64,000 nt of DNA, taken from positions 1 through 64,000 of the forward strand of contig NZ_JACDOH010000001.1 of assembly GCF_017656155.1 (NCBI RefSeq), written 5' to 3'. Origin of the DNA: Thermosyntropha sp. Its GTDB lineage: Bacteria; Bacillota; Syntrophomonadia; Syntrophomonadales; Syntrophomonadaceae. This document shows positions 169-47,550 of the stretch, piece after piece. How positions within the stretch are numbered: the first letter of the stretch is position 1; each line of letters starts with the position of its first letter. The notes below the pieces were generated by a model. The model was not told the DNA's origin, made no database searches, and saw nothing but the letters and a program-made list of their open reading frames with translations. The position numbers were made by a program, and so were the translations under genes.

Positions 169-3100
169 TTGGATATTGCTATGAAACGTAAAAATATGTT
201 GATGATTTTCGTGTTGAGTGTATTTTTAACTTTAATTATGATGCTTTTGGGTAGTATATTTTTATGTCATTATGAGGGGAAACTACTTAAAGATTTGCTT
301 GTAATTGCGGTAATTTTGGTATTCCCGATAATTATTCTCAGTAGTATAGCTTTTTATAAGGTTATGAAAAATGTTTTTGAATACATGAACCAAGGGGATA
401 AGAAATGGAAGTATAAAAACATTCCCAGCTGGATGCTTTTTTTAGTTTTGTTCTCCTCTTTTCTTCCTGTTTTTTTGGCTTCATTGTATCTTTTGCTGCA
501 GGGAAAGACTTATTTTTACCAATTTGCCTTCAATTCGCTGTTTAGTTTGATTATAGGCTTTTGCTGTGCCAATCTCTGTGCTTTCTTAACATCAAATTAT
601 TTAGTCAAATTGTTGGAAAAATATTTTTCGGTAACAACACCCGTAGAAATGGCGAAAGGATTAGTCGAAGGTTTGCCTGCTTCAGTACAGGGGCTTATTT
701 CTTCTAATCCAGAGGAAACAGTGACGGAGATAGAAAAATTTATAAAATTTATTGCTGAAACCAACCCTTTTATGATGAATGTGTATTTTGCTTTTCGTGA
801 AAATTATATTCCGGGAAAACGCTATCATTGTCCAGGATATATAAGAAAGGGGAACCATTTAGAACCGCTTGAAATTAATTACAATGAATATGATTACTTT
901 AATGCTGCTGATCCTAATATGGATTGGTATCATGGGGCAATAAAAGACCAAGGTTTACATATTACAGATCCTTATTTTGATGAAGGAGCTACTAATAGTT
1001 GGACTATATCAGTAACTGTCCCTATTTATGATTCGTCTGGTGATTTTATCGGGGTTGTGGGGGGAGATGTTTTACTTACCCCTGAAGAAGCCGAGGCAAT
1101 AATTTTTAATCAGGGTAAAGACGGGAGTCGACTTTTAGATTATATAGGTTACTCTATGAAATGGAAATTAACAGGGAATTTTTCCTTTATAATAGTTATT
1201 TTAGCGGCTGTAAGTATTTATAATTTCAATTATTCAGCGGCTGATATGGAAGAAGAAGTGTTAGCGAGATGTTCGTTGAGTGCACAGGTTGAGGCGGATA
1301 AGAGCTATGCACCTCTAAAAGATGCAATTGGGATAGTAACTTCTATGCCGATAGCAATTGTCAGCCAGATGGGGGATGATCCATTAGAGAATCTGGACAA
1401 GTGGAACAGTTACTTACATGATTTGGCCAGTAGTAACAAATTTCTGCTTAATGCTTATGTAGCTTTGAGAGAAAATTATGTACCAGGGGAAAAATATAAT
1501 TGTTTATTATGGGTGAATGATGGAGCTGAAGCCAAGCGTTTGTATTTAGATTATGCGGATTATGATTATTTTGATGCTGATAATCCTAATATGGCATGGT
1601 TTCATGATCCTATAAGACAGGACAGATTAGTCATAAGCAAACCTTACATGGATACGGGAGCTAATAACCAGATGTTGGTATCCATTACTGTCCCGGTAAA
1701 AGACCGAGAGGGAAATTTGATTGGTGTGGCTGGTGCGGATATTTCTCTGGATTATTTAAAAAATATGGTTAATGAAGTAGATGTAGGGAAAAAAGGTTTA
1801 GTTTTGCTTGTTGATCAAAGTGGGGATATTATAGCAGGTTCGAAAAAAGCGGGATTGCAAGGCAATTTATTTGAACTTTTGGAATCTTCTGGCGACAGCT
1901 TGGCTTCAAAGGTTGTCGAATCTTTAAGAGAGGGAAAAGAATTAACGGAAATCAGGAGGTCTGCTGTTAGTGATGAAAATGTTTTTTTAGCTACGGCGAG
2001 ATTGGGTGATACGGGTTGGCAACTTATATTCCAGTATAATTATATGGAACAAATGAGTGAAATTGTAAAGGCTGCGTATAATACTATTTTTATAATAATC
2101 CTTTCTATATTGATAACTTTTCTTATTTCGATGCTTTTCAATCGAGTTATAAATCGAGAAATTTCAGAGCTTACTGCATTATCGTCTGTTTTAGCTGAAG
2201 GTGATTTCAGACATAAGGTGGAAAAAACTTTTGGAGATGAGATGCAGTTATTGGCCAATATGCTTAATAATATGGCTGTAAAGCTCGCTTCAGTATTAAA
2301 ACAGGCCAGTAATGCAGCTAATCACAGTACAGATGTATCTGAACAGATAGCACAGAAGACTTTTAATATTAGGGAAAAAACCCATGAAATAGTATCCGCT
2401 ACGCAAGAAATATCAGCCGGAATGGAAGAAGCTTCTGCTTCTACTCAGGAAGTGAATGCAGTTGCAGAAAATATAAAGGCTGCTGCTGACTATATAAGCA
2501 CACAAACCAAGTCAGGGACTGAACAGTTACAACAGGTAAAGAAAAATGCTCAGAATATGAGTGAACAGTCCCTCAAAACCCGCCAGGAAGCATTGGATAT
2601 GATTAATGAACGCAGTTCCAAACTGGAACAGGCTATCAGAGAAGCAAAAATCATTGAAAAAGTAAAGAGCATGGCTGGACAGATCTCAGGAATAGCTTCG
2701 CAGACTAATCTGCTGGCTCTTAATGCAGCTATAGAAGCTGCCCGGGCGGGTGAGCAGGGTAAAGGTTTTGCTGTGGTAGCAGAGGAAATACGCAAATTGG
2801 CTGAAGAATCTTCACAAATAGCTGGAGGAATACAGCAGATTATACAGCAAGCAAGTATTTCCGTAGAGGGCTTAATAAATGATTCTTCTTTTATACTGGA
2901 GTTTTTAAATGAGCGTATAATTTCTGATTATGATTCGATGGTGCAAACTGCTGATAAATATGAACAGGATGCAGAAGCTGTATTGGTACTTATGGAAAAT
3001 TTCAACCGTTCTGCGGGTGAATTGGCAGCCTCAATTGAGGAAACTACTAAGGCTATTGAGGAAAATGCATTAGTAGTTTCGCACAGTGCAGCCCGGGCTG

Positions 3101-3225
3101 CTGAAATAGGAGATGCAGCCGGAGTAGTAGCAGAGATGGTTGATGACCTTAATGAGATTGTTAGAGGCTTAAGTCAGGTAGCAGAGATGTTAAAATCTTC
3201 AATTGACCGTTTCAAACTTGAATAA
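169..3225 (+). CDS. Methyl-accepting chemotaxis protein with duplicated Cache sensor
   Basis: This is a chemoreceptor that would pass ligand signals to CheA/CheW. Four hydrophobic helices lie at about residues 10-33, 42-63, 87-110 and 117-142. A first Cache-like module (about 155-306) is followed by a fifth helix (about 335-352), a second longer Cache region (about 375-625), a sixth helix (636-658), a HAMP linker (659-711) and a cytoplasmic signalling domain. The signalling hairpin tip (about 841-885) has the family's conserved [18 protein letters not shown] sequence. The two Cache copies are clearly related: both contain an ENY(I/V)PG motif and a (D/N)YDYF(N/D)A.(D/N)PNM.W(Y/F)H block. The TTG start is preferred because AGAGGGG lies 7 nt upstream; the ATG at 181 is the alternative. 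The protein is about 1018 residues, unusually long for this family. The ligand cannot be predicted. A terminator-like hairpin follows the gene. Confidence 0.93.
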
Positions 3226-3330: not shown

Positions 3331-3447
3331 ATTTATAATTAACAATATGAAAGTCTTTTGATTTCTTATTTTTTCCTGGAATTTAAGGTAGGATTTTTGT
3401 AAGGTGAAGGAGAAAATAAGGGTAGCAAATGGAAAGTGAGGAAAAAC

Positions 3448-4596
3448 ATGAAGACGAGAAAGATAGTTTTTGCAGGAGCGGTAGTAACTACTCTGTTGGT
3501 GCAATTGGCAGTGGCGTATGAGCTGTCTGTTTTTATTTGGGCAGGAATTATTCTGTTTGGAGGATTAGTTACCACTTACTATATAGCTTTAAACAGTAAA
3601 TCATCGCAGGAGATAGCAGCGCTTCGAATACTTTTACGGGCTTATAAGGATTTAATATCACTGAATCAGGCTGAAAATGTCAGATATATTTTTGATAAGT
3701 GGTTATTGCAATTGGCTGATTGTGAGCAGATGTTTTATTATTCCCGAAGAGAGGAATTATCGGATTTGAATATTGAATTTTTGTATTCAGAATATGAGGA
3801 AAGAATAAAGGAAGGCCAGGGATTTGTGATTAACAACCGCAAGGAGCTAAAAAAGGTAAATAAAAATGGGAGGATACATTCGCTGTTGGTTTTACCTTTG
3901 CCTAAAGAAGAGAAAATAAGCGATTTTATATGTTTTGTAAACAGCAGTAAAGGATATTTTAGTTCTCATGATGTACAGGTTTTAAAGTGTTGGGTGGATG
4001 AAACAGGAAGACATGAAAAATATTTAAAGATAAGGGAAGTTGAGCAGGAGTTTTATCATAATTTGCTGGGCATTTTAATGCTGGCTTTGGAAAAAGGTAC
4101 TCCTGTGTTTGAGGGGCATGGCAAAAGGGTACAGAAAATTTCACTCCTTCTCGGGCAAAAGTTGGGATTGGATGAAGAGGAAATGAAAGTTTTATCCTGG
4201 GCTGCTCTTTTTCATGATATAGGGCGAAACATATCAGAAGAGGGAGAAGAAATTGACCTGCACCCGGTTTATGGGGCGGAGCTTTTTCCGGATGAAGGAA
4301 TTTTGGGAGAGGTGAAAAAGGCGATACTTTACCATCATGAGAGATATAACGGGAGTGGTTTTCCCGAAGGGCTGGAATATGATGATATTCCTTTTGTTTC
4401 CCGCATAATAGCGGTGGCAGATGTTTATGATGCAGTAGTTTACATAAATCGAGAAGGTGAGGAAGTAAATCATGATTTGGGCATGGCAGTGATAAAGAAA
4501 GCTACCGGAACCCTTTTTGATCCACTGGTTGTGAGGGCTTTGGAAGAAATAGAGGATGATATGAAAAGGTTCGAGGAAGATGAGATTGAAGAGTAA
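3448..4596 (+). CDS. Membrane HD-GYP domain phosphodiesterase
   Basis: Two N-terminal hydrophobic helices (about residues 5-22 and 26-45) anchor a region of about 150 residues of uncertain fold, possibly GAF-like. A C-terminal HD-GYP domain follows from about residue 220. The metal-binding HD pair is at H256-D257 in FHDIGR, and HHERYNGSGFPEG starts at H296, with Phe where the canonical GYP Tyr sits. HD-GYP proteins hydrolyse cyclic di-GMP, so this is probably a c-di-GMP phosphodiesterase; activity is inferred. The ATG at 3448 is chosen because GTGAGG lies 6 nt upstream; an in-frame GTG at 3436 has no better site. The gene lies between two envelope/sensory units, 65 bp before the envelope operon. 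Confidence 0.85.
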   Translation: MKTRKIVFAGAVVTTLLVQLAVAYELSVFIWAGIILFGGLVTTYYIALNSKSSQEIAALRILLRAYKDLISLNQAENVRYIFDKWLLQLADCEQMFYYSRREELSDLNIEFLYSEYEERIKEGQGFVINNRKELKKVNKNGRIHSLLVLPLPKEEKISDFICFVNSSKGYFSSHDVQVLKCWVDETGRHEKYLKIREVEQEFYHNLLGILMLALEKGTPVFEGHGKRVQKISLLLGQKLGLDEEEMKVLSWAALFHDIGRNISEEGEEIDLHPVYGAELFPDEGILGEVKKAILYHHERYNGSGFPEGLEYDDIPFVSRIIAVADVYDAVVYINREGEEVNHDLGMAVIKKATGTLFDPLVVRALEEIEDDMKRFEEDEIEE

Positions 4597-4661
4597 AGTT
4601 AGAGTAGGTTTTAGCCGATAAGATATTAGAGAAATATTTAAGTTTTTAAGGAGCAGGTTTT

Positions 4662-7523
4662 ATGCAGAAAAAGGTTGCAGCAATAGTATTTTTTGTTTTA
4701 TTTCTATTTTCAATCGTTAATTTTAAAACAGGGGAAGCAAAGGCGGCTTCGGCTGATGAAGTTTTAGCAGAGGCTTTTCCTTATGCTGGGCAGCTTTACT
4801 TAAACAGCAAGCATTATAACAGTGACGGCTTTATCCTGCGCGAATTTGGAGGAACTGAATTAATAAGGGACAGTGAAGGCGGACTTCTGAGCAAAGATGT
4901 GGTTTTAACCTGGAAAACAGGTGAAGCAACAGTTAATTATGCCGATCTTTTAGCAGCGCAGAAACAGTCAACAACTGAACTGGTTTACGGGTGCCTTTTG
5001 CTCAACATGCCATCTAATGTTGTGCCTGCTGACGGGAATTACCGCTTTATAGTAAAAACAGGGGATAATCCGGCTGTTTTTTATACTGATTTGTCCGGAG
5101 GAGTTTTTTCTGTTCCTCTTACTCCCGACAGCTCGAAGGCTTACAACCCTTTGACTAATCCTCTTCAGAAATCGATTATTGCCTGGAGGACTTCAACCGG
5201 ATGGCAAAAGATAGAGATAATGCCGGTCAGTGAAGCTGATGCAGTTTTGACAAGAGCTATGCCCAATTCTGCTTTAGATAAACTGGAGCTTAATGTTGTC
5301 CATTATAATCCGACAACCGGCATTTTATATCTTGATGTCAAAGAAGGAACCGGGGAGCTTAAGACTCCTGACGGGGTGGCTCTTAGCAAAGAAGAACTTT
5401 TGAGTTTTAGTACCGGCACTTTGATAGTCCGATATGCAGATACTTTGGCTGGGCAGGTTGGAATGGACAAAGATGGAAACACCTGTTACGGCTATCTGCG
5501 TCTTGATATGCCTTCAGATATTTCTAAAATAATCTTAAAGACCGGAGATAATGACGCTTTTTTTGATGATGCTTCCGAAGGAATTTTTTATATCCCTCTT
5601 ACCGAATATCCCGATAAGCCTTATAACTGGCAGACGAATCCCCTCAAAGAGGCGGTTATTGCCTGGCAAAACAGTTCGGGAGCCTGGACTAAGCTTGCTG
5701 TTATCCCGTTATCTCAGGCTGAACAGATTTTGAGTAGTGCGGCTTCTTCTAGTGTACCGCTGACACTATCTTCTGTTCTTTATGGCTCTGATGGCAAGCT
5801 TTATGCCGATGTTTTAAACAAGAGCGGGACTTTAACGGCTAAAGACGCTCAAACAATTTTGACCAAAGATAATGTTCCTTCCTGGGCAGGAGGTGTTTTA
5901 ACCCTTAACTATGCGGAAACCTTGGCTGGACAGAATACCGGGCAGGGCTATGGCAAGGTTGGGTTGACCCTTCCCGAAGATGTAATGGCTGATGATGGAC
6001 GCCCGCGGTTTATTTTAAAACAGGAAGGAAGAGACGCATATTTTTATAATTCGATAGATGATTTAATATGGGTTCCGTTTATTTATAATTCGGCAGAACC
6101 CTATCACATGCAGAATAATCCTTTAAAAGAAGCCGTTTTGGCCTGGCGTACGGCAGAAGGCTGGAAAAAGGCAGTTATAAAACCGATTCTTGAATATCGC
6201 ACACCCATGGTTAAAAATAAATTTCCGTATTCGGAATCTGATAAGTGGTTTGACGAGCAAAGCCTTAATCCGACCCAGATAAATGGCAAAGAAAGGTATT
6301 TTGTCGGGGTGGTTTTTGTTGATGAAGATGGGCTTTTAAAGCTGTCAGATGATATTATAAAACGACTTGGGTTTTGTCAGGTAGTATCTTCCGGCGGGAG
6401 CCAGGCTTCCGTGGTGGATGAAGAGCTTTTAGATTACATAGATGGTTTAAGTGAAACAGAAAAGAATGATTTTATAAATAAATACATATTTATCCGTGAC
6501 AGTGTCAAAAAAGAGGTGGTTTTACGACTCCCAATAAAGCAGCTCAGGCCTCAGACTTCTTATCAAATAAGCTTTGCGTCTGATCTGGTATTCTATGAAA
6601 ATGGCCGTGGAAATGAACCGATAACCTGGACTTTTACCACTATGGCTGTTCCTCAGATAAGTGGGATTTCTACCGGCAGTGTTGGAGAAGATTATGATTC
6701 AGCTGAACCTCTGATTATAAAAGGGAATTATTTTTACAGTGACAGTGTTACAGTAAAATTTAATGACATTTCAGCATCGCGGGTTGAAATAGCAGCTGAT
6801 GCAAACGGTGAAAAATATCTTAAGGTATACCTTCCCTCCGGAAGCAGCCGGCTTAAGGCGGGGATATATGATATTAAGGTAATAAATAACGGTAATGAAA
6901 ATTACCAGGAAATTTTGGCAGGAAGGCTTAGTGTAGTTCCGGCGGCTGATAAAGAACCTCCGGTAGAAGGTGAATTGATTCAAAATACTTATTACGGAGA
7001 AGTTCGTGAGAAGGTAAATAAAAGTGAAGCTGTCCTCACTTTGAAGTCCTCATATTGGGAAAGAAGCTATATATATTTGAACCTTGATGAAATCATGCGG
7101 GAAAGTATTGCCGTTCACAGAATAAGGTTTTCCGAAAGAAGTTGGCCTGTAATCTGGGAATTTAAAGTTGACTCTCATCTGGTTAAAGCTGTTTTTAGGG
7201 ATATGTTGGTTAGTAGTGGAGATGGAGAAGCTGAAATTTTAATTGGAAAAGCTGAACCGGAACTGGTAAGGGTTATAAGCAAAAAGCTTCCTTTAAATAG
7301 ATTGAGGTCGGAATTTATTGAGATTAATACCGATAATATAAGCTTCAGCGACCTTAATGTGACAATGTTTTTAAACCGTCAGGATGCAGGTGAAATTAAA
7401 GTTTTACGCTATGATGAAAGATACCGCCGGCTTTATGAAATACCTTGCCGGGTGGATTATTTAAATGGAGAGGCAGCTTTCAATACCGGTCAGGGCGGAA
7501 TATTTGTCCTGGTAGAACCGTAA
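4662..7523 (+). CDS. Secreted three-repeat surface protein with TIG domain
   Basis: A signal peptide is evident (basic MQKK, hydrophobic core to about residue 21, AKA-type cleavage site near residue 28). Three related units of about 155 residues follow (about 30-190, 190-350 and 355-510). Each contains a YAD/YAET strand, a YG-x-(L/V)-x-L-x-(M/L)P strand, a TNPL or NNPLK(E) motif and an AWR/AWQ...GW or WTK strand. A domain of about 150 residues ends in a TWTFTT strand, then comes an IPT/TIG immunoglobulin-like domain (about 663-760) and a beta-rich C-terminal region. I do not recognise the repeat as a named family. The protein lies 18 bp upstream of the giant TIG protein and is probably co-transcribed with it. 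A role in the cell envelope is inferred from the signal peptide and the neighbours. Confidence 0.85.
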   Translation: MQKKVAAIVFFVLFLFSIVNFKTGEAKAASADEVLAEAFPYAGQLYLNSKHYNSDGFILREFGGTELIRDSEGGLLSKDVVLTWKTGEATVNYADLLAAQKQSTTELVYGCLLLNMPSNVVPADGNYRFIVKTGDNPAVFYTDLSGGVFSVPLTPDSSKAYNPLTNPLQKSIIAWRTSTGWQKIEIMPVSEADAVLTRAMPNSALDKLELNVVHYNPTTGILYLDVKEGTGELKTPDGVALSKEELLSFSTGTLIVRYADTLAGQVGMDKDGNTCYGYLRLDMPSDISKIILKTGDNDAFFDDASEGIFYIPLTEYPDKPYNWQTNPLKEAVIAWQNSSGAWTKLAVIPLSQAEQILSSAASSSVPLTLSSVLYGSDGKLYADVLNKSGTLTAKDAQTILTKDNVPSWAGGVLTLNYAETLAGQNTGQGYGKVGLTLPEDVMADDGRPRFILKQEGRDAYFYNSIDDLIWVPFIYNSAEPYHMQNNPLKEAVLAWRTAEGWKKAVIKPILEYRTPMVKNKFPYSESDKWFDEQSLNPTQINGKERYFVGVVFVDEDGLLKLSDDIIKRLGFCQVVSSGGSQASVVDEELLDYIDGLSETEKNDFINKYIFIRDSVKKEVVLRLPIKQLRPQTSYQISFASDLVFYENGRGNEPITWTFTTMAVPQISGISTGSVGEDYDSAEPLIIKGNYFYSDSVTVKFNDISASRVEIAADANGEKYLKVYLPSGSSRLKAGIYDIKVINNGNENYQEILAGRLSVVPAADKEPPVEGELIQNTYYGEVREKVNKSEAVLTLKSSYWERSYIYLNLDEIMRESIAVHRIRFSERSWPVIWEFKVDSHLVKAVFRDMLVSSGDGEAEILIGKAEPELVRVISKKLPLNRLRSEFIEINTDNISFSDLNVTMFLNRQDAGEIKVLRYDERYRRLYEIPCRVDYLNGEAAFNTGQGGIFVLVEP

Positions 7524-7541
7524 AAAGGGGAGAGGTTAAGG

Positions 7542-10500
7542 ATGACAAGACATCTTAAGAAATGGAAAGCATTTTTGACATTATTTATATTTGCTTTTAC
7601 CGGGATTATAAGCCCGGTTTTGCCGGCTTACGCCTTTGACCCGGATAATTTTACGGTTGCGGAGATTACCATCGGCAAAACCTATGATCGTGACCGCAAC
7701 CTTACTGGCAGTTATTTATTGATAAAAGGAACCGACCTGCAGGATGCGGAGGTAGGGGTTATTACCGACGAAGCCGGGTATAAACCTCTCACAAACCGGA
7801 CAACCAATTCGGACAGTATTTTGCAATTTGAATTTACCGATAATATAAGGATTTCTTCTCTTATAATCGGGACAGGTGAAATAAATATTTCTGAAAGCCA
7901 GGGTATGCCTTCTCTTACCGGAATAGACCGTAAAGTCAAGGTTAATTCATCGGTAAACCTTACAGGCACTAATTTAGACCAGCTTGAGGCTAATAATGTG
8001 GAAGTAAAGATAAACAATACGATTATTGATAAGAGTGCTATTACGGTTCCTCCCGGACAAACAGAAAATGCTTCCATAGCCATGACTACCGGTGAAACCG
8101 GTATGCAGCAGCTTGTCTTTACCAGACAGCAATCCGGGGAATTGAAAGTAGGCGGGGTAGTTCGGTCTAATCCTCAGATAAACATAAAGTACACCTATAA
8201 AGACCAGTTCCTGTTAGTTCAGGATTTAGATATTTCTTCTGACCTGGAAATGTTTCCTAATCGGGGAGAAAAAGGTGATACTATCTTTTTCAGAGCTACC
8301 AAGCTGGATGATTATGATGTATTTTTTGTCAAAACATTAGACGGAACTGACCCTTATACTACGAATAACCGGGGGCAAAACCCGACTTTCAAGGCAGATG
8401 CGGAAGGAAGCCTTGATATTCTTACCGTTCAGGTGCCGGATATTCCTACTGGCGAATATTATGTGGTTTTGACCAATAAGGTTCCTGCCGGAGAGGATCC
8501 GATGAAAGCAGTTATAAGTGAATGGGTAGTAAGACAGGATAATTCTGATCCTTCTTCACTGCCGGAGATATTTACGGTAATTGATGCCAGCAACAAAGCT
8601 AAGATTTACAGTATTCAGCCTAATGAAGGGCCTGATTCCGGTTCACCGGCAGTTATCTCCGGACAGTTTTTAGGAACCCTTAATATAAATGATTTTACTC
8701 TGTATAGCGATGCAGAGGAAAGGACTTTTACTTCAGATAATGGAGAAACTTTAATTCGCAGTTGGCAAAAAACCGGGGGTAATGTAGGTAAATATAAAAA
8801 CACCATAGATATAAAAGAGGTTACCCGGCAGATCACGGTTATTATCGGCAATAAAGCTACCTTTCAGGAAGTATATAACAATGATACTTATAATTTTACC
8901 CAGGACTTGGATCGTTTACCCATCAATGTTCCACAGGTGACTGATGCTGCTACTGAACCGGTTAAAGATGTTATAGTAGAAACTACTACTGTGCTTACTG
9001 ATACAGCCGGGAATAATTATACATTTAAAGAGCGGGCTGTGCTTGAAAACGGATATACATTTATTCCCAGCATGATTCAGCCTAATATTACTGACATAGT
9101 TCCTGATAAAATAGAAGTAATAAAGGAAACCGACGATCAGTATAGGCTGCCTGAGCCGCGGTTGATAGCAATTCATGGGCAGAATTTTATGATTACCCGG
9201 TTTGAGAAAGATGGGCAGATAATAACACGTTACCCGGTTATAAGGATAGGGGAAATTGAACTCAACAAAGATATCGAGCCTGAGCTTCAGGTGTATGTTT
9301 TAAGCGAAGATGGGCGCATACTTGACGGAAGTAAAGATAATGAGATTGGAACCAAGATTATAACTGTTATTCCCGATAGCAAACGGATTACTTCTACTTC
9401 TATCGGTAAAACCTTTGTGGAAGTAGTTAATCCGGTGCGCAATTCGGAGCAGTTGGGACTGCACCATGTAGCGCAGGATCTAGTTGAGTTTGTTCTGGTT
9501 CCCGATAATAAAAAGCCGGTAATTGAAAAGGTTACCCCGGATGTAGTTACAATTGACGGCGGAGAAGAAATCATAATAGAAGGTAGCAATTTTGCAGAAG
9601 GTGTGAAGGTTTTTATAGATGGGGAAGAAGTGCCGGGGATTGAAAGGCAGGGAGACAGCAAGAAGATAACTTTTACGGCTCCTGAAGGACGGGAAGGGGA
9701 AACCCAGCTTCAGGTTATGAACCCGGAAGGCGGTATGGCTACCTGGCCTTTTACATATGTTAAGGCTTATACCAATCCTAAGATTACCGACTTTGCTCCT
9801 AAAAAGGGTAATACCGGAACCCTGGTTATGATAAAGGGAGATAATTTCCTTAAGCCTGACCCTACTGCCCGGGAAGATGCCATACTGAAACTGATAGGAA
9901 CCCGGGTGTTTCTGGAGAATATTGAAGTCAATGAATACAACATAGATGAAACTACGAAGAAGATTACCCTGCAGGATTATAATCCTGCACCCGACAAGGC
10001 AGAACCGATATTAGCCATTGTGGAGGGGGCTTTGAAACCTGCTTCATATTACCATGCGCTTATTTTTGAAAGTGCAGGCGGCCAGTTTTTTACTATGAAT
10101 ATCAATGCAAAAGGAGAGACAACTTTAAGCGACGGGGCAGGCACTATTTATACTTTTTATGTTAAAACCGAAAGCGATGGCACACATAAAATAATGGCCA
10201 GTAAAGAAGGTGGGGGGATTACCGAAGTCAATGTAATAAATACTGCTTCTTTGGAACTGGTTAGTGAAAATATTACCCTGCAGGCCAAGACCTTATATAA
10301 AGTAGAAGATGGGGTAATAACCGGCTGCCGGGTTAAGGTGATGGATATCAATACTATATTATTTACGGTTCCAATATTAGAGGCAGATGGCTATTATGAT
10401 GTTACTGTTATGAATCCGGATACCAGAAAAGACAGCAAAAAAGACCAGGCCGGCTTTTACTATTATACTCAACCCCAATCTAAGCCGCATATAACCGAGA

Positions 10501-13500
10501 TTAATCCGAGTGAAGGGTCGGTAAATGGAGGGTATGATGTTGAAATAATAGGAAGTGACTTTATTGATAATGGAAGTGAGAAGACCCGGGTATATGTAAA
10601 TGGAATGGAAGTAAAGACGGAAGATGTAAGTATTAATTCGACTGGTACGCTGATAACATTTAAAATGCCGGCTTATCCTGGAGACCTCAGAGAAGATAAA
10701 GGGACTGACCGGCTGGCAGTTCCGATAGTGGTAGTAAATCCGGACGGGGGAACTGACAGCAGGGAAGAAGGATTTATTTATGTGGTTCCTAGAAGTTATC
10801 CTTCTATAACTAAAATCGTTCCGGCCAAAGGGAGCGCCGCCGGCAATGATGTGGTGGAAATCACCGGAAGCGATTTCAGGTATTTTGAGCCTTATGATGA
10901 TATTAACCGGAATCAGCTGTGGGATGAAGGAGAGCCTTATAATGATTTAAACGGCAACGGCACCTGGGACAGTATAACCCAAAACAGCAGCAAAGCGGAA
11001 CCGGTATCTCTTAATCATCCCCAGTACAGCTATTATTTCAATTCCCCGATTTTGCCCCGGGTATATTTTGGTGATGAAATGGCAAAGATTGTGGAGTTTG
11101 ACCGGGGATACATTAAAGTTATAACTCCGCCCGCAAAAGCCGGACAGGTCGATGTATATATTGTCAACAACGATTCCGGGGTATCAAATAAGGTTAAATT
11201 TACCTATGAAGGTTCCAATCCTTCTATAACTAAGATTGTGCCGGATGAAGGGCGCAAACAGGGACGGGAAAATATTGAGATTTATGGTTCAGGTTTTGTA
11301 AATAGCAGTATTCAGATATACAGAGACGGTGTATTGATAAACCGCCAGATGCCTTTAGTTCGCTTTAGCGATATTTCCAATGAAAATATACCTAGAGAAC
11401 AGCCTGATTCTGGGAGAATAGACAGCGGAAGGGCTACGGTAAATTTAGATGGCGGGCTTAAAGTGGAATACAGGGCGGCAGGGGCTTTAGCCAACCTTAC
11501 GGTAAGCATAACCGAGAATGATGTGATTTATGAAAGGACTATCGATGGATATGATGGGACGGTTAAATTTATTGATGTAGAAAGTTTAATTTCAACTAAA
11601 GATGGAATAACCCGCTATACCGGATATGAGCTGATAAAGATAAGGGTGGAAGACCGCCGGCTCATAGTAGAAAGAGGTTATTCGCCGGAAGCCCAGCTTA
11701 TCCGTTCAACTCAGCTTACGGTTAAAACTCCTTCTTACTATACGGTAGGGCAGGTTCCGGTTGTTATTTGCAACCCGGATGGAGGAACGGCGAGCGGCAG
11801 CTTTACCTATAAGAATCCCGACAGCAAGCCGAAGATTATAAATATTACCCGGGATGGGAAAAATCCCGAAGATGTAACAGTTGATGGAGAAAATATAAAA
11901 GTTTTGAATATTAACTACAAAGCTAAAAGCCTGATAACCATTTTAGGTGAGGATTTCCGGGAAAATGCCAAGGTTTTAATCGGAGATTTTATGACTATAT
12001 CTCCTCAGGATATTGTTTATACCTTACCAGGGAAGCTGAGCTTCAATCTGCCGGTTGTGGAGGAGAGCCGGATAGGTAAGCTTTACCGGGTGGTAGTGGT
12101 GAATGAAGATGGGGGAACGGCAGCTTCAGATGATATGCCTTTCGGGCAAAAGCCTATTTATATTCAGTTTACCAAGGGAGAAACTACACCCCTGCTCAAT
12201 AAGGCTGAACCTTTAAAAGGGCCGGCTATCGGAGGAACTGTGGTAAAAATTGAAGGAAATGATTTCCGGGCTAATATGGAAGGCTATGAAGGCAAGACAT
12301 TTAAGGTTTTCTTTGGCGGAAAGGAAGCCGCCGAAGTTCAGGTGGTAGACTATAAGACGGTTTATGCCGTAACTCCGGATAATGTTCCCGGCAAACACAT
12401 CATTAAAATCGAGAATCCCGACGGAGAAACAGCTGAGCTTAAAGATGGCTTTGAATATATAAGTGTTCCCAAGATAACAGCGGTTGTTTCTGCTTCTGAT
12501 CCTGCTGAAAATAGCCGGGTTCGGGAAATTTCTACCGACGGCGGGCAGGAAATAAAGATTAAAGGTTCAGATTTTATGCCGGGAGCCAAAGTAGTTTTTG
12601 CTCCTTTGATAAAAACGGCTTCTGCTGATGAAGCAGATATATATAAAGTAAAAGATGAAACTAAGGAGTTCGCCGGGGCTAAAATTACCAGCAAAGAACT
12701 GGATTATTATGTCTTAGAGTCAGGAACTGATGCAGCGGAAGTGAATTTTATCGACAGCGAAACTTTGACGGTTAAGGTTCCTAAAGGCAAGCTGGATGCT
12801 AAAGGTGTAATTGTTATAAATCCGGATAAGGGTGGCAGTGATATCTATGAAGATTTGACATACACTTTACCTGAGATAAGTGCGCCTTTGGGAGTAACGG
12901 CGGAAATAATAGAAGATAAATATAACGATTCCGACTTTTATATAAAGGTTAACTGGAACAAGGTGGAAGGTGCTTCTCAATATGAGGTTTATGTGATAAG
13001 AGAAGATAAAACCCCGGAATTTGCCGGTTCAACTGATTTTACCTCCTTTATCTACAAAGATTTAGAACCGTACACCAGCTATAAATTCGTAGTTACTGCG
13101 GTAGGCAACTTTGGCTCTTCGAAATACTCGGCTTCCAGCAATGAAGTTATAACTGGAAGCAAGGTAGGAAAGGCAGATGAAGACGGCGCTTTAGGAGAAA
13201 AAACCGAGATAAAAAGACAGGGGCAAACAGTAAATGTCGCCATTGGAACGAGCGACTTTGAATGGAATAATCTGTTGATTGATTTAACCAGGGGAGAGCT
13301 TGCCGGAGCCAAAAAAGTGGTTATAAGCATTCCGGCCTGGGTGGCAGCTGATTCTTATGCAAAGGATGTTGAAATAAGAGGCAGCAGCTTTACAGTTAAA
13401 TTCAACCCCCGGATTTTTAGAACAAAACGGATTCTTGAAAACAGCAACCGAAGTGATGCGGGAGTAAAACTTACTTTTGAGCAGAACAGTTCCTTCCCCG

Positions 13501-13787
13501 GAATTAGCCGGGGTGGGCAGCTGTCTGAAATATTAGAGCTTAAAGCTGAATTTTTCAGAGAAAGCGAAATAACAAGCCTTGATTATCTGGCATCTAATAT
13601 GTCGATTATACTCGATTATGATCTGGCTAAAGCTGGTATGCGCAGGTTTAACCGGGTTTATATAGCAAGATATGATATAAACAAAGGAACCTGGGAACAG
13701 GTAGGAAGGGAACAGTATGTGACAGGAAGCATTGGAGAAAGCATAAACCGGCTGGGCAGTTATGCAGTTGCAGGAAGCAGGAGGTAG
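7542..13787 (+). CDS. Giant secreted IPT/TIG and fibronectin III repeat protein
   Basis: The protein has 2081 residues with an N-terminal signal peptide (cleavage near AYA, about residue 32). Roughly ten TIG/IPT-like units are recognisable by a P-x-I-x-x-(I/V)-x-P start and a GG-x-x-(V/I)-x-I-x-G-x-(D/N)F turn. They begin near residues 353, 514, 657, 744, 981, 1086, 1226, 1429, 1548 and 1642. A fibronectin type III domain lies at about 1779-1873, followed by a C-terminal region of about 200 residues. Inside the 1086 unit is an acidic, calcium-loop-like insertion at about 1115-1143 (DINRNQLWDEG and DLNGNGTWD). TIG and FN3 domains are extracellular beta-sandwich folds, so a surface fibre, adhesin or scaffold is likely; no enzymatic domain was found. 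It has no SLH domain itself; the fourth protein of the operon does. Confidence 0.88.
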   Translation: MTRHLKKWKAFLTLFIFAFTGIISPVLPAYAFDPDNFTVAEITIGKTYDRDRNLTGSYLLIKGTDLQDAEVGVITDEAGYKPLTNRTTNSDSILQFEFTDNIRISSLIIGTGEINISESQGMPSLTGIDRKVKVNSSVNLTGTNLDQLEANNVEVKINNTIIDKSAITVPPGQTENASIAMTTGETGMQQLVFTRQQSGELKVGGVVRSNPQINIKYTYKDQFLLVQDLDISSDLEMFPNRGEKGDTIFFRATKLDDYDVFFVKTLDGTDPYTTNNRGQNPTFKADAEGSLDILTVQVPDIPTGEYYVVLTNKVPAGEDPMKAVISEWVVRQDNSDPSSLPEIFTVIDASNKAKIYSIQPNEGPDSGSPAVISGQFLGTLNINDFTLYSDAEERTFTSDNGETLIRSWQKTGGNVGKYKNTIDIKEVTRQITVIIGNKATFQEVYNNDTYNFTQDLDRLPINVPQVTDAATEPVKDVIVETTTVLTDTAGNNYTFKERAVLENGYTFIPSMIQPNITDIVPDKIEVIKETDDQYRLPEPRLIAIHGQNFMITRFEKDGQIITRYPVIRIGEIELNKDIEPELQVYVLSEDGRILDGSKDNEIGTKIITVIPDSKRITSTSIGKTFVEVVNPVRNSEQLGLHHVAQDLVEFVLVPDNKKPVIEKVTPDVVTIDGGEEIIIEGSNFAEGVKVFIDGEEVPGIERQGDSKKITFTAPEGREGETQLQVMNPEGGMATWPFTYVKAYTNPKITDFAPKKGNTGTLVMIKGDNFLKPDPTAREDAILKLIGTRVFLENIEVNEYNIDETTKKITLQDYNPAPDKAEPILAIVEGALKPASYYHALIFESAGGQFFTMNINAKGETTLSDGAGTIYTFYVKTESDGTHKIMASKEGGGITEVNVINTASLELVSENITLQAKTLYKVEDGVITGCRVKVMDINTILFTVPILEADGYYDVTVMNPDTRKDSKKDQAGFYYYTQPQSKPHITEINPSEGSVNGGYDVEIIGSDFIDNGSEKTRVYVNGMEVKTEDVSINSTGTLITFKMPAYPGDLREDKGTDRLAVPIVVVNPDGGTDSREEGFIYVVPRSYPSITKIVPAKGSAAGNDVVEITGSDFRYFEPYDDINRNQLWDEGEPYNDLNGNGTWDSITQNSSKAEPVSLNHPQYSYYFNSPILPRVYFGDEMAKIVEFDRGYIKVITPPAKAGQVDVYIVNNDSGVSNKVKFTYEGSNPSITKIVPDEGRKQGRENIEIYGSGFVNSSIQIYRDGVLINRQMPLVRFSDISNENIPREQPDSGRIDSGRATVNLDGGLKVEYRAAGALANLTVSITENDVIYERTIDGYDGTVKFIDVESLISTKDGITRYTGYELIKIRVEDRRLIVERGYSPEAQLIRSTQLTVKTPSYYTVGQVPVVICNPDGGTASGSFTYKNPDSKPKIINITRDGKNPEDVTVDGENIKVLNINYKAKSLITILGEDFRENAKVLIGDFMTISPQDIVYTLPGKLSFNLPVVEESRIGKLYRVVVVNEDGGTAASDDMPFGQKPIYIQFTKGETTPLLNKAEPLKGPAIGGTVVKIEGNDFRANMEGYEGKTFKVFFGGKEAAEVQVVDYKTVYAVTPDNVPGKHIIKIENPDGETAELKDGFEYISVPKITAVVSASDPAENSRVREISTDGGQEIKIKGSDFMPGAKVVFAPLIKTASADEADIYKVKDETKEFAGAKITSKELDYYVLESGTDAAEVNFIDSETLTVKVPKGKLDAKGVIVINPDKGGSDIYEDLTYTLPEISAPLGVTAEIIEDKYNDSDFYIKVNWNKVEGASQYEVYVIREDKTPEFAGSTDFTSFIYKDLEPYTSYKFVVTAVGNFGSSKYSASSNEVITGSKVGKADEDGALGEKTEIKRQGQTVNVAIGTSDFEWNNLLIDLTRGELAGAKKVVISIPAWVAADSYAKDVEIRGSSFTVKFNPRIFRTKRILENSNRSDAGVKLTFEQNSSFPGISRGGQLSEILELKAEFFRESEITSLDYLASNMSIILDYDLAKAGMRRFNRVYIARYDINKGTWEQVGREQYVTGSIGESINRLGSYAVAGSRR

Positions 13788-13790
13788 CTT

Positions 13791-15485
13791 ATGTTAAAGA
13801 AATATTTGAGCTTTATTATGGCAGTTATAATTCTTCTTTCTTTTCCCGGAACGGGCAAAGGGGCGGAAAATCCCTTCATCCAGGGGTATATTGAAGGGTA
13901 CCTGGCAGGCATCAGCCTGCCGGAACCCGATAAAGATGGTCAGCTTGCCAGCAGTGGGAGCATAACGGTTGAAACTTATGATGGGGAAATGTTCAACATA
14001 AGTCTTAGTCCGAAATTTTCAGCCAGCATTGACAGGCGTCCGGCTAAAATTACTGATTTTAAGGCAGGAATAGAGGTTTATGCTAGAATTGTCGACAAGC
14101 AGGTTGTCCTTTTAGAAGGCTATTCTGTTGCGGGGACCAGTTATATATCTCCGGGAAGCAAAATTCGGAGGGGCATGATTTCTGGAATAGAAAATGACCA
14201 GCTTATATTAAAGGATTATGCAGGGGCTAAAGAGATTTATTATATTTCGCCGGCTACTTTGATAATGAAGAGAGGGAAGGTTATTACTCCCGACCTTTTG
14301 TATGCCGGGGATAAAGTGAAGCTTTATTTTGATGAGATTAATTCAAGCATGATAAGCCGATTAGAAGTAGAAGGGGATTCTGTTCTGGTAAACAATCTTT
14401 ACAAGGGGAAACTTAAAACAGCTGATTTTAAAGGAGAAAAGCTGGTTTTAAGCGATGTTTTCATATGGCGCAACGGCAGGTGGCAGACTCAGTCCGGGCT
14501 GCTTTATTTGCCTTACAGCACGGGGATAGCTCCTTTTATCGGGGGACAGAAGATAAATGAGGCCAAACTTTCTTATTATCAGGGAAAAGATGTATATGTG
14601 ATAACTAAAAATATACTGGGAAGGGAGACAGCGGAGCGGATTTTTTTGAAGAACCAGTATGAAACGGTGGTTGCGGATAAAGTCCTTGATATAAACTGGT
14701 ATGTGGATAAGTTTGAACTAAAAAACAAGAGCAACTTCGCCGTTCATGAGGGAAGTGCAGTTATAAAAGACGGCAGACTGCAGGATAAGATGACTTTATC
14801 ATCCGGCGATGATGTCCTGGTAATAGCAGATGGCAGAGGCATAAACAGGCTGGCTAATATAATTTATATTTATAATCAGGGGATTAATAATTCCAGTTTA
14901 GGCCAGCACTACCTGTATGTCGGAAGGTTGGAGCAGGTGGCAGAGTATAAAATATGGCTTAAAGATTATTTTCTCCTGGCCGGGAACAGCTGGGAATCAT
15001 ATACCGGGGTTAAGGAGCTTTATTATGATAATGATAGTTTTTTCTATGATGCTAAAAAGAAGAGTTTAATATCAAGTGAAGAGTTTTTAGCCGGAGATTA
15101 TGCGGTAGATGAAGATAGTGAACGGGTTAAAGAAGAAGGACTTAAGGATTGGTATGCCTATATTTGGACTGATGGGGATAGGGCATCGTCCCTGCTATTA
15201 CAGGAAGATATGGATTCTTTGCTTAGACAGAGAGTAACTGGTGGAATAATAGCAGAAATTGAAAATGATGAGGCGGCGGGGTGGACAATTCAAATCAGGG
15301 AACCGGTTGACTGGAGCGGGGTTAAGGAACAGTGGATGCCGAAAACTGCCAATCTGCGGGTGAATGTGGATAAAGCCATGATTATAAAAGACAACTGCTT
15401 AATCCTGCCGGAAGAACTTAAAACCGGGGACAGGCTTTATATAGTCCGTGATGATTTTTATGCCAAAGTAGTTATAGTAAAATAA
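13791..15485 (+). CDS. Secreted beta-rich protein of unknown function
   Basis: The start codon lies 3 bp after the stop of the giant TIG gene, and its AGGAGG site (13779-13784) sits inside that gene's last codons, so the two are probably translationally coupled. A signal peptide precedes a mature protein that starts near residue 25 (GAEN). The body is a chain of short units with the pattern G-x-I-x-x-I-x-x-x-x-L-x-L-K-D followed by GD(K/D)V strands, resembling small beta-barrel repeats such as DUF5666-type domains. That likeness is weak and by eye. No catalytic motif is visible. Position in the operon argues for a partner in assembling or anchoring the surface proteins. Function unknown. Confidence 0.8.
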   Translation: MLKKYLSFIMAVIILLSFPGTGKGAENPFIQGYIEGYLAGISLPEPDKDGQLASSGSITVETYDGEMFNISLSPKFSASIDRRPAKITDFKAGIEVYARIVDKQVVLLEGYSVAGTSYISPGSKIRRGMISGIENDQLILKDYAGAKEIYYISPATLIMKRGKVITPDLLYAGDKVKLYFDEINSSMISRLEVEGDSVLVNNLYKGKLKTADFKGEKLVLSDVFIWRNGRWQTQSGLLYLPYSTGIAPFIGGQKINEAKLSYYQGKDVYVITKNILGRETAERIFLKNQYETVVADKVLDINWYVDKFELKNKSNFAVHEGSAVIKDGRLQDKMTLSSGDDVLVIADGRGINRLANIIYIYNQGINNSSLGQHYLYVGRLEQVAEYKIWLKDYFLLAGNSWESYTGVKELYYDNDSFFYDAKKKSLISSEEFLAGDYAVDEDSERVKEEGLKDWYAYIWTDGDRASSLLLQEDMDSLLRQRVTGGIIAEIENDEAAGWTIQIREPVDWSGVKEQWMPKTANLRVNVDKAMIIKDNCLILPEELKTGDRLYIVRDDFYAKVVIVK

Positions 15486-15505
15486 AAAATTGGGGAGTAA
15501 GGGTT

Positions 15506-17008
15506 ATGAGAACAAAAAAGTTTTTAGCATTTGTTTTAGTTTTTTCTCTGATATGGGGGATAAATTATCCGGCATGGGCAGCTATGCCTGACATTACAGG
15601 CGGAATTAATAATGAATACGAATATGAAGAGATAGTCTTTATATCTGGAGAGCCGATTAAGTTTATCGGCAAATTCAGTGTGAGAACTAAAGAAAAGGAT
15701 GATGAGGCTACTGTTCGCTATAAGCTGGATTTGAGGCCGGAAGACAGCAGCATTAAAGGAAAGCTGAGCCGTCAGGTTACTTATGAGATAAGCTATGACC
15801 GCCGCACTGATAAAGGGCAGACGATTGCTACAATTGAGGTGGCTTCTTTTAAAGAATCTATTGATTTGGGTAAAGACAAATATAAGCTGGAAGATTATCA
15901 GTTTTCAGCTTCTGACGTGATTGATAACAGGCCGGCTTCAGATTTTTATTCCGGAACAATAACTGCGCGCAAATATTATACCATTAATAAAGACGAAGGA
16001 ACGGTGATTGTAGAAATAAATGGAGGAAGGGTGGGGTATTCGAATTTCTGGGGGAGCACTTTAACCCAGATTGTGGAACAGGTTATAAGCGTAAACCGCC
16101 AGATTACAACTGAGGATGAGGAAACAGAAAATGTTTCCTGGAAAGGAACAGTAAAGATAGATATTTCTGACAGCATGCGCAAATCCTTGAAGTATGAGGA
16201 AAATAAAGCTGATTTTGCCAGCTTCAGCGGAGGACATATGCGGATAACTAATCAAGAGATGTATTCGCGTTATGAATATGACCTGCCTTATGTTAGAGAT
16301 GGGAAAATAGATGACGGCAGGCGCAACAGGGGGGAAGTTGAGCTTTCCAAATCTATGGTTCCCAAAATTGAAAGGCTTATTGTGCCTAAATTTTATGATA
16401 CCAGAGGTCACTGGGCACAGGAGAGCATAGAGAAGCTTTATTCTTTAGATGTTTTTACTGATGATTCTTCATTTTTTGTTCCAGATGCTCCCATGACCAG
16501 GGTGGAATTTGCCCGGGCAGTTATAAAGGCATGTGATATAAGGGTCGATTCTGAGAAAAAGAAAAGGGTGAGCGTGCGCAATAAACAGCCGGAAGTTTCT
16601 TTGTTTGAGGATATGGATGTGGAAAGTGATGATTATAAATATGTAAAAAGTGCTTTTGAAAAGGGAATTATGAGCGGCGTAGCTCCTGACCTGTTTGGCC
16701 CTAAAGATAAGCTTACCCGTGCTCAGGCGGTTACTATCCTTATACGAGCTTTAGGTTTTGAACATAAAGCTCCTACGCCGGGATTTTTTACTTCATTTGT
16801 GGATGATGAAAAAATTCCGGATTGGGCTAAAGACAGCGTGTATGTTGCCAGGGAAATTAACCTGATAAGCGGAGATACCGGTGGAAGGTTTAATCCGGAT
16901 AAGGTGATGACCCGGGCAGAAGCTGCTGCGATGCTGGTGAAGTTTTTGGAATTTATGGAAAAAGACTTACAGAAGAATTACCGGGAAGAGATAATCCTTT
17001 ATAGATAA
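15506..17008 (+). CDS. Secreted protein with three C-terminal SLH domains
   Basis: A signal peptide (to about residue 26, AWA) is followed by a beta-rich region of about 265 residues and three SLH domains at about 295-345, 361-415 and 429-480. Each SLH unit shows an F-x-D or FYDTRGHW start and a TR-type motif (MTRVEFA, LTRAQAV, MTRAEAA). SLH domains bind secondary cell-wall polymers, usually pyruvylated, and tether proteins to the wall. This is the only protein of the operon with such an anchor, so it may hold the other secreted products at the surface; this is inference. It starts 20 bp after the preceding gene. Confidence 0.92.
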   Translation: MRTKKFLAFVLVFSLIWGINYPAWAAMPDITGGINNEYEYEEIVFISGEPIKFIGKFSVRTKEKDDEATVRYKLDLRPEDSSIKGKLSRQVTYEISYDRRTDKGQTIATIEVASFKESIDLGKDKYKLEDYQFSASDVIDNRPASDFYSGTITARKYYTINKDEGTVIVEINGGRVGYSNFWGSTLTQIVEQVISVNRQITTEDEETENVSWKGTVKIDISDSMRKSLKYEENKADFASFSGGHMRITNQEMYSRYEYDLPYVRDGKIDDGRRNRGEVELSKSMVPKIERLIVPKFYDTRGHWAQESIEKLYSLDVFTDDSSFFVPDAPMTRVEFARAVIKACDIRVDSEKKKRVSVRNKQPEVSLFEDMDVESDDYKYVKSAFEKGIMSGVAPDLFGPKDKLTRAQAVTILIRALGFEHKAPTPGFFTSFVDDEKIPDWAKDSVYVAREINLISGDTGGRFNPDKVMTRAEAAAMLVKFLEFMEKDLQKNYREEIILYR

Positions 17009-17047
17009 TTTTTTGGGGTGAGATATAAGAAAGCCAGGTGAGGACGA

Positions 17048-18514
17048 TTGCGGGGCAGTAAATTTTATATTACCGCTTTAATATTAGGGATTATTTGTGC
17101 TGCCTTTGTTATTTATTTTAGAGAGATTGTGCCCCCGGCAAAAGAGACAGCAGTTTTTGCTTTTACAGAAGAAGATGAGGAAAGTTTGCTTTTTCCTGCC
17201 CCGGATAAGACTTTGTATCAAATGGATTTGTATTTTGATGTAAACGAGCGGATGCTTTACGGCAAATCTATTATTACTACGATTAATACTTCTGGGCAGG
17301 ATCTTAATGATTTGTGGTTTACGGTTTATCCTAATGCCTTTGTTAAAAAAGATAAAACTCCAGCTCCTGAAGAGGCATATTATAATGGATTTGATAAAGG
17401 TTGGCTTAAGGTATCAAAGATGAAAGTTAACGGGAAAAGAGTTGTTTTTCTTGATAAAGGGGTTAATCTGGAAGTTATTCTTTTTGAAAAGATAAATAAG
17501 GGAGCTGATATAAAGATTGAAATAGAATGGCAGGCTAAAATTCCATATCTTGCGTACCGGTATGGCAGCAGAAATGGAGTTTTTATTTTAAGCAATTTTT
17601 ATCCGGCTTTAAATGTTTTAACTGAAGAAGGCTGGCTCAAGGCAGAAAATGTTTCTTTTGGAGATCCCTTTACTTTTCACAGTGCCAGCTATATTGTAAA
17701 TTTAAATATTCCCGAAGCATATGATGTTGTTTCAAATGGCTCTAAAACAGCCCGAACGCCGGAAGATAACGGGCGTCAGGGATATGTTATCAAGGCGCAA
17801 AATGTGCGTGACTTTTCAATGGTCTTAATGTATCATTACAAAGAGTTTGGAATTAAAACAGAAAATGGATATATAAGGCTTTATATTCCGGACAGTTATA
17901 AAGAAAAAGCGGTAAATATATTAAGAGAAGCTGCATCAATATTAAACTTTTTTTCAAAAGCTTTTAGTCCTTATCCTTATCGGGATTTTAAAATTGTTTT
18001 TGTGCCGATGCAGGGATTTGAAGGGATGGAATATTCAGGTCTTATATTTTTGAAGGAAGATTTCCTGAAACCTGATTTGCCTGCTGAACGCTTAAGTTTC
18101 ATTATGGCTCATGAAATAGCCCATCAATGGTGGTATAGCCTGGTGGGGAATGATCAGATAAGAGAACCCTGGCTCGATGAAGGATTAGCTAATTATAGTG
18201 CTTCTAAGTATCAGGAGAAAGTAAAAGGGAAAAAACATTCTGAAAAGAATATAAAAGGGGTTAATCTTGCTCGCGGACTTAAAGATATGTATTCACGGCA
18301 GGACTATTATCAGACTGCGTATTATGGGGGAGAATCATTCTGGTGGGGATTAGAAGGAATACTGGGCGAAGATAATGTTTTCAAAATACTGCGCCACTAT
18401 CTTGCCCAGTATAAATATGATATTGCTTCTACCGAGGATCTGTTATACATTATTAAACTGGAATCAGAAAAGGATCTTTCTTATTATTTTGCCAGATGGT
18501 TTAAGAAAGAATAG
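17048..18514 (+). CDS. Membrane-anchored M1-family metallopeptidase
   Basis: The zinc-binding gluzincin signature is complete: H355-E-I-A-H359 followed after 18 residues by E378 in WLDEG. A GFEGMEYSG segment upstream (about 325-333) takes the place of the exopeptidase GAMEN motif. One N-terminal hydrophobic helix (about residues 7-24) makes a signal anchor, so the enzyme should act outside the membrane. M1 enzymes trim N-terminal residues from peptides. The TTG start is set by AGGTGAGG just upstream. It lies 39 bp after the SLH gene and is probably the last gene of the envelope operon, possibly for processing or turnover of surface proteins. Length (488 aa) is short for M1 and lacks the large C-terminal helical domain. 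Confidence 0.9.
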   Translation: MRGSKFYITALILGIICAAFVIYFREIVPPAKETAVFAFTEEDEESLLFPAPDKTLYQMDLYFDVNERMLYGKSIITTINTSGQDLNDLWFTVYPNAFVKKDKTPAPEEAYYNGFDKGWLKVSKMKVNGKRVVFLDKGVNLEVILFEKINKGADIKIEIEWQAKIPYLAYRYGSRNGVFILSNFYPALNVLTEEGWLKAENVSFGDPFTFHSASYIVNLNIPEAYDVVSNGSKTARTPEDNGRQGYVIKAQNVRDFSMVLMYHYKEFGIKTENGYIRLYIPDSYKEKAVNILREAASILNFFSKAFSPYPYRDFKIVFVPMQGFEGMEYSGLIFLKEDFLKPDLPAERLSFIMAHEIAHQWWYSLVGNDQIREPWLDEGLANYSASKYQEKVKGKKHSEKNIKGVNLARGLKDMYSRQDYYQTAYYGGESFWWGLEGILGEDNVFKILRHYLAQYKYDIASTEDLLYIIKLESEKDLSYYFARWFKKE

Positions 18515-18519
18515 TTTAT

Positions 18520-18882
18520 CTATACAGAAGCCCCGTATTCTTTTAAGATATTTACGGCACTATTTGCTTTTTCGTTTTCTGTTACTACGGTTACCATATA
18601 AGAGTATCCTCCCGGGAGGTCAAAGTCTGCGGAGATTCCGCTTACCGTGGGGTCAGCGGCTAAGAGAGCACCAAGTGAGCGATCATAATCGGTGTTACCG
18701 ATAACCATAGAAGAGATACTGGTACTTGATCCTCTGCCTGGACTGCTGCCGGGAAACCGGGATATACTGTCAAGCTGAACATCAGTATATCCTTCCGCTT
18801 TAAGTTTTTCAACGGCCATTCTGGCACTATTATCATCAGCAAAATAAGCTAATATTGATCTTTGTCCTGGTTTTAGCTGCAT
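18520..18882 (-). CDS. Small conserved-looking protein of unknown function
   Basis: The 120-residue protein converges on the M1 peptidase gene, with 5 bp between the stop codons. It has an AAGGAG ribosome binding site at proper spacing. The N-terminal third (AYFADDNSARMAVEKLKAEG) and the C-terminal third (VTVVTENEKANSAVNILKEYGA) both read as a beta strand followed by an amphipathic helix. They may be two halves of a ferredoxin-like fold such as those that sense or bind small ligands. They are joined by a Gly/Ser-rich linker. There is no signal peptide. The function is not recognised. Confidence 0.7.
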   Translation of the reverse strand: MQLKPGQRSILAYFADDNSARMAVEKLKAEGYTDVQLDSISRFPGSSPGRGSSTSISSMVIGNTDYDRSLGALLAADPTVSGISADFDLPGGYSYMVTVVTENEKANSAVNILKEYGASV

Positions 18883-40251: not shown

Positions 40252-40345
40252 CCTCCCTTTTTAGAAAAATTTTTAGGAGGAAATAGAAACAATCGCTTTT
40301 AAATTGTCTCTATCTCCATACTTCGCACCCAAAGTGTGGGGATAT
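40252..40345 (-). promoter_or_regulatory. Expression platform of the metE riboswitch
   Basis: On the minus strand GGAGATAGAGACAAT pairs with ATTGTTTCTATTTCC (40303-40317 with 40279-40293, with G-T pairs), a candidate terminator hairpin. A second possible pairing puts the CCTCC at 40276-40280 against the GGGAGG ribosome binding site (40252-40257) of metE. The two share bases, so they may be alternatives. Which is used when B12 is bound is inferred. Confidence 0.6.
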
Positions 40346-40349
40346 TACG

Positions 40350-40530
40350 ATTATAGGGCAGGTCTCCTGGCTTCTCTTCATCTTACTTTCTTTCCCTTCC
40401 CATCTAAGACTTAGACAGTGGATATGAAAGATTTCATCCGAGTTACAGTAGTGGGGGCTGCTCAGGATTTGCACCTGATTCCCTATTATCCCAGCTTATT
40501 AAGCCGGGCACCCTATAATCCCTATCCAGT
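40350..40530 (-). ncRNA. Cobalamin riboswitch upstream of metE
   Basis: The minus strand has the conserved B12 box AGCCAGGAGACCTGCC near 40357-40371. At the 5' side it has the GGTGCAAATCCTGAGC and GCCCCCACTACTGTAAC blocks that form the core helices. This is a known riboswitch class that binds adenosyl- or methylcobalamin and shuts off the downstream gene. It should repress metE when B12 is present, implying a B12-dependent MetH elsewhere. Confidence 0.93.
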
Positions 40531-40545
40531 AAGCTTGTCTTAATA

Positions 40546-44505: not shown

Positions 44506-44518
44506 ATTAAAAAGAGAG

Positions 44519-44546
44519 GGGCAGATATTAAACTTAATATCTGCCC
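44519..44546 (+). terminator. Terminator after yhaM
   Basis: A 12-bp or longer stem (GGGCAGATATTA at 44519-44530, TAATATCTGCCC at 44535-44546) with a 4-nt loop follows the gene. The tail is TATATTATT, T-rich but not a clean run. Confidence 0.7.
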
Positions 44547-44598
44547 TATATTATTAACAAAGGTCTGCTTTTTTAACTTTATCAATAATAAATATAAT

Positions 44599-47167: not shown

Positions 47168-47228
47168 AATTATAGAAATCGGTTTATTTATAAATATATG
47201 GTATGAATAGATAGAAATTAATATCCCC

Positions 47229-47257
47229 TTGAGTTTTGTTTTTTTTCTTGTTATAAT
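47229..47257 (+). promoter_or_regulatory. Sigma-A promoter of rpmE
   Basis: TTGAGT (47229-47234) and TATAAT (47252-47257) are 17 bp apart, close to consensus. The gene starts about 85 bp downstream. Confidence 0.8.
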
Positions 47258-47272
47258 GATTCTTGCAGTTTA

Positions 47273-47292: not shown

Positions 47293-47342
47293 ATGCAGTT
47301 TATATATAATGATATATCCTCATTTGAAGAGAGGTGAGAATA

Positions 47343-47546: not shown

Positions 47547-47550
47547 ATTA

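Follow-up and report, generated by a model that had tools for sequence, protein, structure and literature searches.

Does a tight run of five envelope genes in Thermosyntropha sp. encode a surface structure of its own, or is it part of a wider cellular system? The run occupies positions 4662–18514 of the forward strand in the stretch of DNA analysed here (64,000 nucleotides, hereafter the window), and its genes are referred to below as A to E. An initial annotation had proposed a self-contained structure made of a fibre or scaffold, a wall anchor and a processing enzyme.

Layout of the operon and its encoded proteins

The operon begins with A (4662–7523, 953 aa), whose secreted product contains three copies of a repeat of about 160 aa, with 35–45% identity between copies. 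This is followed by B (7542–13787, 2081 aa), encoding a giant secreted TIG/FN3 protein, C (13791–15485, 564 aa), encoding a secreted beta-rich protein, D (15506–17008, 500 aa), encoding an SLH wall anchor, and E (17048–18514, 488 aa), encoding a membrane-anchored M1 metallopeptidase. All five ORFs are co-directional on the forward strand and separated by gaps of 18, 3, 20 and 39 bp, exactly as first described. Inspection of the N-termini by eye likewise confirmed Sec-type signal sequences on A, B, C and D and an uncleaved N-terminal anchor on E.

On the 5′ side lie a gene for a methyl-accepting chemotaxis receptor (169–3225, forward strand; PF00015, 7e-28), which is context outside the set, and a gene for an HD-GYP-type protein (3436–4596, forward strand; PF13487, 2e-20), to which a NosR-type c-di-GMP phosphodiesterase model matched below cut-off. 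An HD-GYP-type gene also stands upstream of A/B in most loci of the same family. On the 3′ side, inspection of translations identified argS, a metallo-beta-lactamase-fold hydrolase and pyrG. Between E and argS, on the opposite strand (18520–18882), is a 120-aa ORF with no match in Pfam or NCBIfam; ORFs similar in size and orientation occupy the same place in several own-family loci. Elsewhere in the window, a cobalamin riboswitch (40340–40534, reverse strand; 127.6 bits) overlaps a tRNA-Ile call made by ARAGORN, which is therefore probably false, and the region 44001–48000 has a low GC content (32%, versus about 40% around it).

The Pfam scan of B returned IPT/TIG (PF01833, E = 1.6e-65) and a weak fn3 match; residues 1796–1868 correspond to an FN3 domain matching solved FN3 chains. 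Profile iteration counted 10 TIG units in the window protein, with a C-terminal domain besides, and no vWA family was matched in the Pfam scan at E-values of up to 1. A calcium motif was also considered for B and dropped, as it was not conserved. Since TIG and FN3 units fold as Ig-like beta-sandwiches, a series of 10–21 of them gives an extended rod. C matches no curated family in Pfam, NCBIfam, PHROGs or PDB sequence profiles; weak DUF5666/CusF/S1-like matches suggest small beta-barrels, and an AlphaFold model built from a two-row alignment consisted mostly of strands at low confidence (mean pLDDT 45).

D combines a conserved N-terminal domain with three C-terminal SLH domains (PF00395; 16388–16513, 16616–16729 and 16796–16927, forward strand) carrying the motifs TRVE, TRAQ and TRAE. 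For the N-terminal domain, the four profile collections searched with C offered nothing usable, and the AlphaFold model of D, again from a two-row alignment, had a mean pLDDT of 45. The ligand of SLH triplets is pyruvylated secondary wall polymer; a CsaB-type pyruvyl transferase (PS_pyruv_trans, C10:34743) is encoded in the genome. E matches Peptidase_M1 (PF01433, 2.7e-22) with an intact HEXXH-X18-E zinc site at residue 355.

Conservation of the B–C–D core

Among 81 relatives, C was found in 28. The neighbourhoods of C-bearing relatives and of 40 further genomes were read and searched with purpose-made profiles, and the order B–C–D was kept in 61 of the 65 loci with D. A TIG fibre protein and a wall anchor as a co-travelling surface set, as the initial annotation had it, were thus borne out. 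Of the four exceptions, one is a contig end (L053) and one is an extra C–D copy (L080) alongside a complete set in the same genome (L147). The remaining two, from family f79 (L091 and L092), have D together with a C that is 1006–1009 aa long and has diverged strongly, and B does not adjoin; further on in L092 come an S41 peptidase, mbl and flgFG. The genome with two C–D sets belongs to family f50: one set (L147, 4222–14843) includes B and lies after flgFG, and the other (L080, 10468–14946) lacks B and stands downstream of a flagellin gene.

Across the phylum (398 genomes), the N-terminal domain of D, with SLH excluded, occurred in 76 genomes from 26 families, and about 68 genomes had a strong match to C, typically with its gene immediately 5′ of D. 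Relatives of A, by neighbourhood reading, were confined to families f1, f8, f47, f85 and f129, and E stood after D and before argS in f1, f2, f3, f36 and f61 only. Most B–C–D loci of other families have neither A nor E, whereas the tight five-gene spacing is kept within the genus of the window. The arrangement is conserved far beyond chance, and A and E lie outside its conserved core. Independent occurrence in relatives had been named as the observation that would speak against a common structure; B, C and D are almost never separated, but A and E do vary.

The SLH protein had also been taken for the only wall anchor. This is so in the window, where C, as in the rest of its clade, has no SLH triplet. 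However, in more distant families (f2, f3, f23 and Geosporobacter ferrireducens, L027) C carries an N-terminal SLH triplet of its own ahead of the shared part. The missing triplet on own-clade C hints that a single anchor may serve both C and D.

Association with the flagellar system

The gap before A holds TAAAGTTAGAGTAGGTTTTAGCCGATAA (4594–4621, forward strand), which matches the sigma-28 (FliA/SigD)-type pattern TAAAGTT-N13-GCCGATAA with zero mismatches and is the sole exact site of this kind in the 64-kb window. In the congener a similar site is kept at an equal distance, and similar sites precede 12 of the 14 own-family loci, with the window locus counted in. Scored with a model built from the E. 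coli and B. subtilis consensus and slightly altered after a first look, so that its thresholds are not fully independent, own-family upstream regions ranked above 57 control regions (p = 3e-8) and other stand-alone B–C–D loci scored moderately higher than controls (p = 0.001), p-values that overstate independence given that loci of one family are kin. The controls were regions upstream of argS, MBL, pyrG and CoA-transferase genes, scored identically. Loci behind flgKL scored no higher than controls (p = 0.89), which is expected from read-through from the flagellar promoter, if they are so transcribed. f2, f3 and several other families showed no clear sigma-28-type site and had no flagellar genes alongside. 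Another genome-wide pattern, TAAA-N14-16-CCGATAA, gave 13 matches versus 8 for the control; its spacing cannot fit the window site and this count has no value as evidence. The genome itself encodes FliA, FlhA, FlgK/FlgL and a flagellin, whose gene has a similar promoter. From these sites the B–C–D operon is predicted to fall under the sigma-28 (FliA) regulon.

The operon of the window is not itself beside flagellar genes; flagellar-operon placement was seen in other families. In 10 genomes from six families other than its own (L062, L068, L071, L072, L077, L085, L087, L088, L089 and L093), B–C–D follows flgK-flgL, with fliW and/or the flagellin gene (hag) alongside, and the gap between flgL and B was 13–118 bp in the five loci measured. 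The rod genes flgF-flgG stand directly 5′ of B in f50 (L147), near B in L074 and L075, and a few genes from D in f45, f65, f79 and f137. No further flagellar cluster was detected in the wider flanks of f23, f38, f47, f85 and others with a limited profile set. Sporulation, considered as a linked trait in view of a spoIID neighbour in f65, was set aside, as spoIID belongs to a spoIID/M23-mbl-flgFG block.

Two further observations concern the flagellar genes of this genome. Contig C4 carries genes for two additional SLH proteins (L117, 1606–4428 and 6934–10134), of which one has a subtilase domain, at 8–18 kb from flgK-flgL. Possible glycosylation of the flagellin is suggested by the gene directly after it on C8 (L118, 7908–9689), which has a match to an MptE-like domain and a weak one to the Maf N-terminal domain.

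Co-occurrence with FlhA pointed the same way as gene order. FlhA was present in all 76 genomes with D and in 250 of the 322 without (Fisher p = 6.6e-8, 398 well-completed phylum genomes), and the difference was maintained among SLH-bearing genomes (76/76 versus 206/255, p = 1.4e-6). At the family level it was weak (26/26 versus 76/90, p = 0.037), and part of the genome-level signal is therefore shared ancestry. As D was absent from 250 of the 326 flagellated genomes sampled, flagella as such do not require it. FlhA was not matched in three own-family genomes with C (80, 80 and 97% complete; less complete or contaminated). Missing contigs are a likely cause, since two of these loci (L035 and L042) keep sigma-28-type sites.

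The promoter, the placement in flagellar operons and the co-occurrence with FlhA, a context that the initial annotation had missed, indicate that B–C–D belongs to the flagellar regulon and is not free-standing. Judged from these genomic data, a link between B–C–D and flagella is very probable.

Proposed function and comparison with known systems

We consider B–C–D to be a wall-anchored accessory complex of the flagellar system, read broadly, with a probability of roughly 65%. From the domain content we infer that B is a fibre and that B, C and D act as one complex. The core would be exported by Sec, bound to the cell wall and made within the flagellar (sigma-28) regulon. D, together with C where its SLH triplet is kept, would dock on the secondary cell-wall polymer, and C would bridge to D or co-anchor with it. 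B, as a rod of 10–21 Ig-like TIG units, would reach outward as a fibre or coat and would be produced at the filament stage of flagellar assembly. Its most likely site of action would be extracellular, where filament, wall and surroundings meet, and there it may aid flagella-driven movement over surfaces or between cells. A role in surface motility in particular, which is proposed by analogy, is tentative and somewhat less than an even bet. A bolder version, in which B–C–D is an undescribed extracellular flagellar module of SLH-walled bacteria with no counterpart in model organisms, a wall-fixed fibre or collar through which the turning flagellum is coupled to the envelope or to adjacent cells, is rather doubtful.

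The proposal of a self-contained five-gene surface structure with no link to motility, in which E serves as the processing enzyme, now appears highly improbable. The tight spacing in the window and its genus agrees with it, as does the position of E after D in f2, f3, f36 and f61. However, A and E come and go, being missing from most B–C–D loci elsewhere, and the sigma-28-type promoter and flagellar context tie the remaining core to the flagellar regulon. The enzyme also seems an unlikely candidate for the part, as M1 peptidases are generally aminopeptidases, which remove residues from the N-terminus and do not as a rule cleave large fibres. An adhesin or matrix fibre, which attaches to surfaces or partner cells and shares flagellar regulation for timing only, is less remote than this and still improbable. 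Adhesive surface proteins typically have long TIG/FN3 chains and a wall anchor, and the genes beside the operon in its own family, one for an HD-GYP-type protein linked to c-di-GMP turnover and one for a chemoreceptor, would suit such a role; integration into flagellar operons in six families and the absence of D from every sampled genome without FlhA nevertheless exceed what timing needs.

The main rival, a little more credible and still unlikely, is a bushing or stator scaffold, that is, a wall- and S-layer-bound collar round the rod and hook or a brace steadying the motor against the envelope. B–C–D would then be a functional counterpart of the P and L rings, which to our knowledge Gram-positive bacteria lack, or of the contact with the S-layer that has been proposed for archaella. 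This is consistent with SLH anchoring and with rod genes adjoining B in f50 and lying near D in four further families; work on archaella also points to an S-layer as stator scaffold (PMC12448462). However, flgFG near the f45, f65 and f79 loci is part of the generally occurring spoIID/mbl-flgFG block, and late (sigma-28) expression and placement with flgK-flgL-fliW-hag suit the filament stage better than rod assembly. In addition, a TIG chain of 2000 aa is large for a collar, and 206 of the 282 flagellated SLH-bearing genomes are without D.

If B–C–D is indeed an accessory complex of the flagellum, its distribution across 26 families and its absence without FlhA in our sample would make it a common extracellular partner of the flagellum, and one seemingly unstudied; a literature search for S-layer homology together with flgK and flgL found no paper. 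B. subtilis is the usual model for reading the flagella of Clostridia-like bacteria and, as far as we know, has no SLH-type surface layer. B–C–D may offer a handle on flagella that work through or with such a surface, and three unnamed proteins become testable motility genes in cultivable strains.

In a literature search on TIG-domain proteins of flagellar operons, the sole functional study found was that of CmoA from Paenibacillus sp. NAIST15-1, a secreted protein of 1064 aa with a vWFA domain and eight IPT/TIG units, whose gene forms part of the flagellar operon yvyC-fliD-fliS-cmoA (PMC5072692). CmoA is reduced in the absence of flagellin, is required for movement on hard agar in particular, and works when added from outside (PMC5072692). 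B resembles it in being large and Sec-secreted, with a tandem IPT/TIG array and a flagellar-operon link. Unlike CmoA, B is 2081 aa long, has FN3, lacks vWFA and is accompanied by the SLH partners C and D, the likeness resting on TIG. The position of the genes also differs: cmoA comes after fliD-fliS, whereas B lies behind its own sigma-28-type promoter or after flgKL. In this genome fliD is on contig C4, away from B, and elsewhere the neighbours of B are flgKL, fliW and hag, not fliD. We do not class B as a CmoA, since vWFA is absent and the likeness is known for TIG only, and treat CmoA-like action as a lead.

D has its closest parallel in SlhA of Paenibacillus alvei, a 1335-aa protein with three C-terminal SLH domains that is required for swarming, flagella still being made without it (PMC3776848). 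Both are surface proteins with an SLH triplet at the C-terminus, compared here by their SLH part only; D is much shorter (500 aa), and the SLH motifs of SlhA deviate from the common TRAE. More generally, D, and C outside its own clade, share the SLH triplet with SLH-anchored S-layer and surface proteins, in keeping with the CsaB-type gene, but the non-SLH parts of both match no curated family. By analogy, B–C–D would combine CmoA-type and SlhA-type features in one operon, with a distribution that is both wide and consistent.
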